Source: a virus
DNA length: 21,525 nucleotides
Direction: 5' to 3' (one strand)
IMG/VR virus record: IMGVR_UViG_3300042294_000403
Coordinates: 1 to 21,525 of that record
In this document: piece by piece, positions 2,540 to 12,325 of the stretch
How positions within the stretch are numbered: position 1 is the first letter of the stretch
Layout: each line of letters begins with the position of its first letter
Made by a program: the position numbers and the translations under genes
The notes under the pieces: model-generated
The model's input: the letters and a program-made list of their open reading frames with translations, nothing else
What the model was told of the DNA's origin: nothing
Databases searched by the model: none

Positions 2540-5344
2540 TTAGAATGAAACCGTTGCTCCGCCAGCATCAATTGTATATGTCCATGATGATGTAGTCGCT
2601 ATTCCTGAATTATAGATGATGTCTGTGTTAGGTGTGACATTTCCGCCATCTAAATAATTAACAATGTAGGCATTTGCGTCCTCACCAGTAACACCTTGAA
2701 CACCTTGAGTACCAAACAAACCTTGCGGCCCTTGTAAACCTTGTACTGATTGCGTTCCTTGTGTTCCTTGCAGACCTTCAAGACCCTGTATTCCTTGAAT
2801 TCCTTCAGTACCCTGAGTACCTGTTAAGCCCTGAGTACCAACTAAACCTTGCGAACCAGTTGTTCCCTGTGAGCCTGTAGTACCTTGAATACCCTGCGTA
2901 CCTTGCGTTCCAACAATACCTTGAATTCCTTCTGTACCCTGAACTCCTTGAATACCAGTTTCACCAGTTGCACCTTGAGTTCCAGTTAATCCCTGAACTC
3001 CTTGTGTACCAGTAATTCCCTGTAATCCTTCAATGCCTTGAATTCCTTCAAGTCCTTGAGTACCAGTTGTTCCTTGAGAACCATTTAATCCGTTAGCACC
3101 CTGAGATCCAGTAACGCCTTGCAATCCCTCAAGTCCTTGAGTTCCCTGTGTGCCTTGTGTTCCGTTAGTTCCCTGGCTACCTGTGACTCCTTGCAATCCT
3201 TCAGTTCCCTGAGTTCCTTGCAGACCTTCTAAGCCTTGCGCGCCAGTCGTTCCTTGCGTTCCATCATGGCCCTGAATTCCTTGCACACCCTGCGTACCAG
3301 TAGTTCCTTGAATACCGTCTAAGCCCTGTGATCCTGTTTGTCCTTGAGAACCAGTTGTACCCTGAACGCCTTGCGTTCCTTGAATACCGTTTAATCCTTG
3401 AGTACCTGTTTGGCCTTGAATTCCAGTGAAACCTTGAGTTCCCTCAACACCTTGAATTCCTTCTACGCCCTGCGATCCAGTTTCGCCTTGAGCGCCAACA
3501 AGTCCTTGTGTACCTGTTGCGCCTTGCAAGCCAGTAATTCCCTGAGCGCCTTGAGATCCAGTAATTCCCTGAGATCCTGTAACACCCTGCAAACCTTCTG
3601 CGCCTTGAATTCCAGTAGTGCCTTGAATTCCCTGCAAACCAGTAGTTCCCTGCGCACCTGTCGTACCTTGCGCGCCAGTTGTTCCTTGAACGCCCACGCT
3701 TTGAGTAATAAGAGAAATGTTATGATTATTGGCAAAGTTTGTTGTGCCTGTTCCGCTTGAGTCTAAAAGTGCAACAGGAAAAGTGAAATAACTATTAGGA
3801 ACATTTGTAGGTGTGCCGTTTACTTGCCATTCTTGATAATTGGCAGAGTCACTTCTATCTTGAATAAAGAAGATGTCACCATTTTTAATGTTTGCTAATA
3901 AGAAATCAATGTCCACATTTGCATCTGTTAAATGAGATACATAAATGTTTGTTGAGTTAATTTGTGTGGCATTATTCCATTTAATGTCACCAGCATTAGG
4001 GGGAGGTGTTTGTGAATTTGCTACCGCTACATAATCAAAAATAGATGATGATGTACCGCTTGCACCAGTATTACCCTGCACACCTTGAATACCATCTAAA
4101 CCTTGAACACCCTGGCTACCAATAGTTCCTTGTACGCCTTGAGTTCCCTGCGCTCCAACAGTTCCCTGAATTCCATCAAGTCCTTGTGAACCTGTTACAC
4201 CCTGAACACCAATAACACCTTGTGTTCCTTGCGCTCCATCTGCACCTTGAATACCTTCAGTTCCCTGTGATCCAGTTATGCCTTGAATACCCGTTGTGCC
4301 TTGCGCACCTGCAACACCCTGTAAACCTGTTAAACCTTGCGCGCCAATAGCACTCTGAATACCTTGTGTACCTTGAGCGCCTTCTAAACCTTGAAGTCCT
4401 TCAATACCTTGCGTACCTTCAACACCCTGCACACCAATAATTCCTTGCGCGCCTGTGTTGCCTTGAATTCCATTAAGCCCTTGAGATCCATCATGACCTT
4501 GAACGCCTTGTATTCCTTGCGCTCCTGTATTGCCTTGAATACCAGTTAAACCTTGAGAACCAATTGTTCCAGTTGTACCTTGAGAACCTGTCTCACCAAT
4601 TGCTCCTTGTGAACCAGTTAAACCTTGAGATCCAATTGTTCCTTGTGATCCCGCTCCACCTGTAGTTCCTTGAACACCAGTAATGCCCTGAACACCTTCA
4701 ATACCTTGAGAACCAATTGTTCCTTGTATTCCTGTTGCACCTTGAACACCATTAGTACCAGTTATACCTTGCGCACCGATTGTTCCCTGAACACCAATTA
4801 AACCTTGTGTTCCAGTTGCGCCCTGCGCACCAATTGTTCCTTGAGATCCTGTAAAACCTTGAGTGCCGGTTGATCCTTGCACACCAAACGCACCTTGAAT
4901 ACCTTCAAGGCCTTGCGCACCAGTTGTGCCTTGCGTACCAACAGATCCTTGTACACCAATTGAACCTTGAATACCTGTGTTGCCTTGAATACCTTGAGTT
5001 CCCTGACTACCTGCAACACCTTGCAAACCAGCGTCACCTTGAATACCAGTTAATCCTTGTGAGCCGGTAGTTCCTTGCGCACCAATTGTGCCTTGCGCGC
5101 CATTAAATCCTTGTACACCTGTAACACCCTGCGGGCCTGCAATACCTTGTGTGCCTTGTGCTTGATTAAAGCCACCGCCCTGTAAACCCTGTGTTCCTTG
5201 AACACCTTGCGCAGAAAAGTTTCCTGAAGGCCCTTGAATACCTTGAGCGCCTGGTTGCCCCGCAGGGCCAGGAGTAACAACAATAACATTTGGAGTTCCA
5301 ACAGGGTTTGGATTGTTAAGAAAACTGTTTGGGTTGTATGTCAT
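2540..5344 (-). CDS. Large collagen-like phage structural protein (934 aa)
   Basis: After a short N-terminal segment ([20 protein letters not shown]) the protein has two long collagen-like Gly-X-Y tracts, about residues 27-432 and 550-885. They are separated by a non-repetitive domain (about 433-549, with [20 protein letters not shown] and [15 protein letters not shown]) and followed by a short C-terminal domain. The triplets are unusual for collagen in having almost no proline; Gln dominates the Y position and Thr, Ile, Leu, Val or Glu the X position. Collagen-like tracts in phage proteins form rod-like triple helices in fibres and capsid decorations. The ATG overlaps the preceding stop as ATGA. 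Codons differ between repeat copies, so the tract is old enough to have diverged at the DNA level. It is probably a trimeric fibre shaft. Confidence 0.85.
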
Positions 5345-11486: not shown

Positions 11487-11496
11487 AATTCCTCCT

Positions 11497-11525
11497 GTAA
11501 TGGTTACATCAATGGTAACAGTTAC
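11497..11525. promoter_or_regulatory. Cluster of GTTAC/GTAAC half-sites upstream of the small pre-RusA gene
   Basis: Within 29 bp the sequence reads GTAA-tgg-TTAC-atcaatg-GTAAC-a-GTTAC, four alternately oriented half-sites. It lies in the 53-nt gap between the initiator stop and the next start. The same GTTAC core is clustered inside the initiator gene at 11994-12032, so the initiator could bind both sites and regulate the genes downstream. This is inference from repetition only. Confidence 0.35.
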
Positions 11526-11539
11526 AGATAATTTTTGCG

Positions 11540-12325
11540 TTAATTTATAGGACTCTTTTTGAAAAGATTGCGTAATTCTGCGGGTGGTGGAACTGCGCGT
11601 GATCTTTGTTCTTCCTGTTCCCTGAACCATTGCGCGGCTTCCTCTCGTTCCTTTTCGCTCTTGTTTCGCATTTCCTGTAATTTTTTCTGTTGAATTTCTG
11701 TAGAAGCGTCTAATGGCGGTAAAGGTTCATCAAGCCATCTATGGGCGTTTAACCAGGTTGCAGGGTATGCAGTGAAGGTCTTAGTCCTGTTTGGGTCTGA
11801 TTTGTACCTCTGAGCGCCTTTAATGATTACTTCAGGATCAATCTCTTTGATCTTTGTGTAGAAACTCTTTCGCGCTTTTTCTTTACCTATCTTGATTGGA
11901 TAAACAGCCCAAAATTGATCGAATAAATCTTTCTTTCTTTTATCTGTTTCTGTTTCTGTTTCTGTTTCTGTTTCTGTTTCTGTTTCTGATAGCGTTACAT
12001 CACCGTTACTTTTTTCTCTGTAACGCGTTACACGATTGCGTACCTGCTCACGCTTTTCTTCTACCGTCTTACGGCTTGTTTGATGCTCGCAATAGTCATG
12101 AATTTGCGCACCTGTCTCAACCGTTATCCAAAGGCCTGCTTCTACTAATTCTTGATAGGCGTTGCCATTGTCCAAACGATTGATTACAGCCTGGGCCAAA
12201 AAGCCATCAGTAAGATATTGATTGGCGTAACACAAACCTTCAATGTAAAGCCTAAAAGCCTTGTCACTGAGCGGCAAGATTTTAGGATTATTGGGCAAAG
12301 TGTCATCTAATTTAATCCAGGTCAT
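11540..12325 (-). CDS. Phage replication initiator (DnaD/lambda-O-like)
   Basis: The 261-residue protein has two parts. The N-terminal domain (MTWIKLDDTLPNNPKI...LSDKAFRLYIEGLCYANQY...LVEAGLWI) is the winged-helix domain of phage replication initiators. A linker with (TE)n repeats (about residues 113-127) leads to a C-terminal domain (LFDQFWAVYPIKIGKEKARK, then AQRYKSDP and FTAYPATWLNAHRW) found in helicase-loader or DnaD-like replication proteins. It probably binds the phage origin and recruits host helicase, since no phage polymerase or helicase is seen. GGAAGG precedes the ATG, which overlaps the WhiB stop as ATGA. The linker DNA contains repeats that resemble an origin. Confidence 0.85.
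   Translation of the reverse strand: MTWIKLDDTLPNNPKILPLSDKAFRLYIEGLCYANQYLTDGFLAQAVINRLDNGNAYQELVEAGLWITVETGAQIHDYCEHQTSRKTVEEKREQVRNRVTRYREKSNGDVTLSETETETETETETETDKRKKDLFDQFWAVYPIKIGKEKARKSFYTKIKEIDPEVIIKGAQRYKSDPNRTKTFTAYPATWLNAHRWLDEPLPPLDASTEIQQKKLQEMRNKSEKEREEAAQWFREQEEQRSRAVPPPAELRNLFKKSPIN
11944..11988. repeat. Hexanucleotide tandem repeat (CTGTTT)7
   Basis: Seven perfect CTGTTT units plus CTG lie inside the replication initiator gene; on the coding strand they give alternating Thr-Glu codons. The unit length keeps the frame, so copy-number change would only vary linker length. The repeat continues a pyrimidine-rich strand that begins near 11927. Confidence 0.95.
11994..12032. other. 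Candidate replication origin: CGTTAC sites and 14-bp palindrome in the initiator gene
   Basis: CGTTAC occurs at 11993-11998, 12004-12009 and 12026-12031, and inverted at 12020-12025; the last two form the perfect palindrome TGTAACGCGTTACA (12019-12032). They lie directly beside the hexamer tandem repeat and between the two domains of the initiator. In lambda and related phages the origin iterons lie in the equivalent interdomain part of gene O. The position and repetition are seen; the origin role is inferred. Confidence 0.4.

Follow-up and report, generated by a model that had tools for sequence, protein, structure and literature searches.

Does the linker of this viral initiator gene, with its two kinds of short repeats, hold the origin at which the initiator acts? 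The window, that is, the whole stretch of DNA analysed (21,525 nucleotides, positions 1 to 21,525 of IMG/VR record IMGVR_UViG_3300042294_000403), encodes an initiator with the following parts.

11540..12325, minus strand: replication initiator gene, 261 aa, with matches to PHROG "replication initiation protein" families
About aa 1-109: winged-helix N-domain, predicted from the AlphaFold model and winged-helix matches
Residues 108-124: predicted disordered linker, a low-confidence segment of the AlphaFold model, lying over the repeat array
About aa 126-206: helical C-domain with an FWxxYP...TWLN..RW signature

The gene product matches PHROG families 2447, 3926, 9474, and 270, each described as "replication initiation protein" (E values of 1e-25 to 3e-22). 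Its AlphaFold model (mean pLDDT, 76.5) consists of two folded parts and the low-confidence segment 108-124. Fold searches show that residues 5 to 83 match winged helices (Z of about 6 to 7), including origin-recognition and plasmid-initiator domains; the N-domain resembles a generic winged helix, a common fold that is no proof of initiator function. The C-domain, which was not modelled alone, gave no convincing match in the fold search. The protein has no Pfam match at all, is not recognized by the model of the O-like protein family (its PHROG hits are to other initiator families), and had no match in a sequence search of the PDB or relative in the cellular genomes searched; 346 phage records match it or one of its domains. 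The window also carries a WhiB-like gene and, because such genes in phages are regarded as pointing to actinobacterial hosts (PMC10202952), we infer an actinobacterial host, probably a freshwater one, judging by the setting of that study. At 2540-5344, the window encodes a long protein with collagen-like GxxGxQG repeats.

Read along the gene strand, the locus runs from the N-domain code through the phased GTAACG sites, the GAAACA array, and a weak A/T-rich stretch to the C-domain code and includes the sequence cgtGTAACGCGTTACagagaaaaaaGTAACGgtgatGTAACGctatca(GAAACA)7gataaaagaaagaaagatttatt. The elements are as follows.

12019..12032, unstranded: inverted pair of candidate initiator sites, forming the palindrome TGTAACGCGTTACA; GTA ACG CGT TAC is invariant in 17 of 17 distinct clade members
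12004..12009, minus strand: direct GTAACG copy lying 22 bp from the first site on the gene strand; L005 and L006 carry a degenerate version
11993..11998, minus strand: direct site GTAACG, 11 bp beyond the 12004-12009 site; 11-bp phasing is also seen in relatives
11944..11988, minus strand: strand-asymmetric array of tandem repeats, which reads (GAAACA)7 along the gene strand; in relatives whose peptides differ, its ACAGA core recurs every 6 or 7 nt
11922..11946, unstranded: weak A/T-rich duplex by nearest-neighbour energy, 3' of the array on the gene strand, a candidate unwinding element

On the strand as numbered, CGTTAC occurs at 11993-11998, 12004-12009, and 12026-12031 and inverted, as GTAACG, at 12020-12025; seven CTGTTT units occupy 11944-11985, and a partial CTG extends to 11988. 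The repeats, the four sites (three direct, one inverted), and the palindrome all lie where the original prediction had placed them. The sites span codons 99-111, at the end of the N-terminal part, between the DNA-binding and C-terminal domains, with the linker predicted to be disordered from 108 to 124.

When the amino acid sequence was kept and its codons were resampled from the phage's remaining genes, 0.1% of trials yielded four sites within 60 bp, and 3 of 2,000 yielded any 6-mer present four times upstream of the array. Under a stricter null model, which draws codons from this gene only and considers 130 bp, the site cluster has a P of 0.12 for the window sequence alone; the single sequence is therefore suggestive, and the comparison of relatives decides. 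GTAACG is not a rare hexamer in the window (18 observed versus 6.8 expected), and the argument therefore rests on its clustering and conservation rather than on its mere presence. In a generic repeat scan of the window and its near relatives, the linker did not stand out and repeats elsewhere in the genomes scored higher; a ranking of repeat clusters put the linker first only in Andrew, Vendetta, and Dardanus (7-mers) and second in Rousseau and B22. A scan for promoters and terminators gave no excess over shuffled sequences.

The P of 0.12 is what might be seen if selection acted solely on the linker peptide (RVTRYR...VT, ETETET) and the DNA repeats came from codon bias, an explanation that the relatives make very improbable. 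The comparison covers 80 IMG/VR loci encoding initiator relatives and includes a close set of 17 distinct members with 70 to 100% amino acid identity. In the close set, the site block is codon-invariant at 10 of 11 amino-acid-invariant residues, versus 35 of 121 elsewhere (P = 8e-5; P = 4e-8 with the array included). The residues between the sites vary (G-D, A-D, A-H, T-L, A-V, A-I), and the codons of the last site are constant. The spacing of the gene-strand sites, 22 and 11 bp, recurs in relatives as 11-bp steps.

More distant relatives carry other sites in the same place. The sister group L020-L028, with a similar N-domain, has GTACG/CGTAC where the window has its sites (codon redrawing, P = 0.046 for L020 and L025 and 0.001 for L027). 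The L048, L055, and L071 groups share the C-domain, and their linkers carry GGGGCGAC repeats; in L048, the N-domain has hits to HTH_36 and to O-like PHROG families. The linker repeats of L063 are ATCGCA. N-domain type and sites change together, with relatives swapping the sites as a set, which a peptide-level explanation does not predict any more than it does the codon invariance; judged from these alignments, the site block is under DNA-level constraint matched to the N-domain type. The comparison gives good support to the proposals of an origin between the initiator domains and of CGTTAC as its candidate initiator site. Relatives lacking both repeat types, named beforehand as contrary evidence, were not found among those that keep the N-domain; these have GTAACG, an altered form of that site or, at a minimum, the ACAGA array.

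HNH endonuclease-like sequence lies inside or directly after the initiator N-domain, at the candidate origin, in L037, L038, L042, and L043, as well as in L045, L079, and L080. In several cultured phages, a free-standing HNH gene immediately precedes the initiator gene on its upstream side.

An array made up entirely of GAA and ACA codons has a P of about 7e-4 from codon usage. The linker array is the strongest tandem array of period 4 to 9 genome-wide in 9 of 16 genomes or records (the window, G001-G004, Rousseau, B22, MrSmee, and Appa). Its ACAGA core is spaced at 6 nt in the window and at 6 to 7 nt in L018-L042, where the encoded peptide shifts from ETETET to EYRIQNTENRTQ, NRIQNTD, or DNRIQNTDNIN and the DNA pattern is kept, independently of the reading frame. 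Distant cultured phages have arrays of GAGACA (Catfish, ThulaThula, Asapag, and Rousseau) or GGAACAGA (Beakin), and others have C-rich units, namely, CCCGA (Yvonnetastic, Dardanus, Vendetta, Hans, and Malibo), CCCAT (MrSmee), GTCCC (Appa), and CCCGTA (B22). Of 35 initiator genes compared with codon redrawing, 20 exceed expectation for arrays and 13 for site-like repeats; the genes are partly related, which makes combined P values optimistic, and in many single relatives, the sites fall short of significance.

That the array DNA stays while the peptide changes also argues against selection on the peptide only, as do B22, Grizzly, and Tweety (L097, L100, and L104), whose short initiators consist of the N-domain only and whose repeats and array lie beyond the stop codon. 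The array cannot be taken as proven noncoding in these three phages: each has one shifted frame that runs through it without a stop, so that it may be translated, and a frameshifted longer initiator product is possible.

Alternatively, the array could be a non-functional product of slippage, perhaps driven by recurrent initiation close by, in a disordered linker that tolerates it; this concerns the array only and is compatible with the sites being a real origin. Copy number indeed differs between close relatives, the linker is predicted to be disordered, and the unit sequence varies widely across phages. Arrays are not universal either: in the groups L041-L078, which share the C-domain, the linker mostly contains repeats but no clean short array. 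Part of the array uniformity may well come from slippage. As an account of the whole array, it is doubtful, if a serious contender, given that the ACAGA core is kept with 6- and 7-nt units across clades with different peptides, that it also occurs in phages with distant initiators (GAGACA and GGAACAGA), and that the array, where present, is on the same side of the sites, ahead of the weak duplex.

That duplex, 11922-11946, is the weakest 25 bp by nearest-neighbour energy (P = 0.045 for the window alone) and lies downstream of the sites, with the array in between. Across 16 phages, duplex stability falls below expectation over the 65 bp 3' of the array (Fisher P = 1.3e-10; 4e-9 when the four closest relatives are left out) and shows no such deficit on the 5' side (P = 0.2). 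The proposal that the skewed repeat serves as an unwinding or spacer element held in part. The window array is itself moderately weak, ranking near the 90th percentile within the window; the lowest stability is that of the adjacent stretch, and the array as the unwinding element itself was rejected for the C-rich arrays (CCCGA and CCCAT) of several relatives. Inverted repeats with stems of 8 to 10 bp occur just 3' of the array in L083, L087, L102, and L034. Hairpins at this position show a mild excess over 19 loci (Fisher P = 0.001) and are absent in the window.

The same sites could instead be an operator only, bound inside the gene by the initiator or another regulator for transcription control, with replication starting elsewhere. 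Initiators often autoregulate, and there is a separate conserved palindrome pair just downstream of the initiator gene. This alternative is unlikely: the linker sites are far from the gene start, inside the gene, and adjoin the weak duplex and the array, and the downstream palindromes remain constant while the linker sites change, which suggests that the two answer to different proteins. The downstream pair consists of two TGTAAnnnTTACA palindromes at 11496-11526, between the initiator stop codon and the ribosome site of the next gene. The pair is similar in relatives even with different linker sites and, being conserved in groups with other linker sites, was rejected as extra initiator sites; it probably serves the downstream gene as an operator or promoter element.

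GC skew, suggested earlier as a check on the position of the origin, was calculated for the window and 15 other genomes or records and was uninformative: the extrema do not fall at the initiator and lie kilobases from it in 4 of 4 near-full-length relatives, where the skew is dominated by gene direction. Skew follows gene direction in phages transcribed mostly one way, and the extrema elsewhere were therefore not counted as refutation.

Codon constraint, in-place exchange of the sites, the persistent array core, and a weak duplex on the 3' side only all favor the reading of this locus as a lambda-type replication origin inside the initiator gene, between its two domains, to which we assign a probability of about 0.8; GTAACG/CGTTAC is a well-supported candidate for the initiator site. 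In the proposed mechanism, the N-terminal winged helix would bind the helically phased GTAACG sites, the inverted pair and the direct sites at 22 and 11 bp, so that an initiator multimer forms on one face of the helix. The multimer would strain the adjacent DNA and the weak A/T stretch beyond the array would open, after which the strand-asymmetric array could become single-stranded on a defined strand, holding the bubble or orienting helicase loading, and the C-domain might recruit the replicative helicase or a loader for it. Cultured Gordonia, Mycobacterium, Arthrobacter, and Brevibacterium phages have the same three-part layout with sites and arrays of their own, and in several cultured actinophages a gene for a DnaB-like helicase or helicase loader directly follows the initiator gene.

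The description of the origin as lambda-like fits the layout and not the protein. In lambda, the origin is found in the middle of the initiator gene O, with initiator sites adjoining an A/T-rich tract (PMC7466680). The window resembles lambda and its lambdoid relatives in the mid-gene origin and the sites near an A/T-rich tract, and the exchange of N-domains accompanied by that of sites in related groups is a further lambda-type likeness. The lambda iterons are 18 bp long, whereas the window has 6-bp half-sites phased at 11 and 22 bp, along with an additional strand-asymmetric tandem array between the sites and the weak duplex. Unlike the O protein, its initiator has no Pfam match, and its C-domain belongs to another family.

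Among other systems, oriL of SPP1 has direct repeats and an A/T-rich unwinding element inside gene 38, which encodes the origin-binding protein (PMC6316719); it is similar to the window in this arrangement and differs in the protein and the repeats, and SPP1 has a second origin. In the mycobacterial prophages Miko and Rachaly, the origin is suspected to be upstream of or within repA, as in lambda, with no repeats found, and RepA is described as a relative of the pMSC262-family plasmid RepA (PMC7157519). These too are actinophage initiators. The DnaA-trios and the DnaD recognition element of Bacillus subtilis are strand-specific single-stranded motifs beside duplex sites, proposed to steer helicase loading (PMC10201434). 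They provide an analogy only: the proteins are different, and the TnnT motif occurs in the TTTCTG strand and not in CCCGA-type arrays. No description of the three-part array layout was found in the literature searched, whose partial coverage cannot show the layout to be undescribed.

The three-part layout with its strand-asymmetric array would be a variant of the lambda-type intragenic origin. More tentatively, and with the odds somewhat against it, actinophage initiators of this class could all share such an origin, made up of exchangeable phased sites, a strand-asymmetric short array, and a weak duplex. The array would then serve to capture single strands or to orient the helicase, as an element of a type not described for lambda, and low-complexity linker peptides such as ETETET and RPDPTRPDPT would be its by-products. 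To our knowledge, the origins of such phages are mostly unmapped, and the layout would offer a sequence rule for finding candidate origins in phages, including cultured Gordonia, Mycobacterium, Arthrobacter, and Microbacterium phages. It would also account for odd low-complexity linkers in annotated initiators as DNA elements that happen to be translated, and would point to short fragments as candidate replicons.
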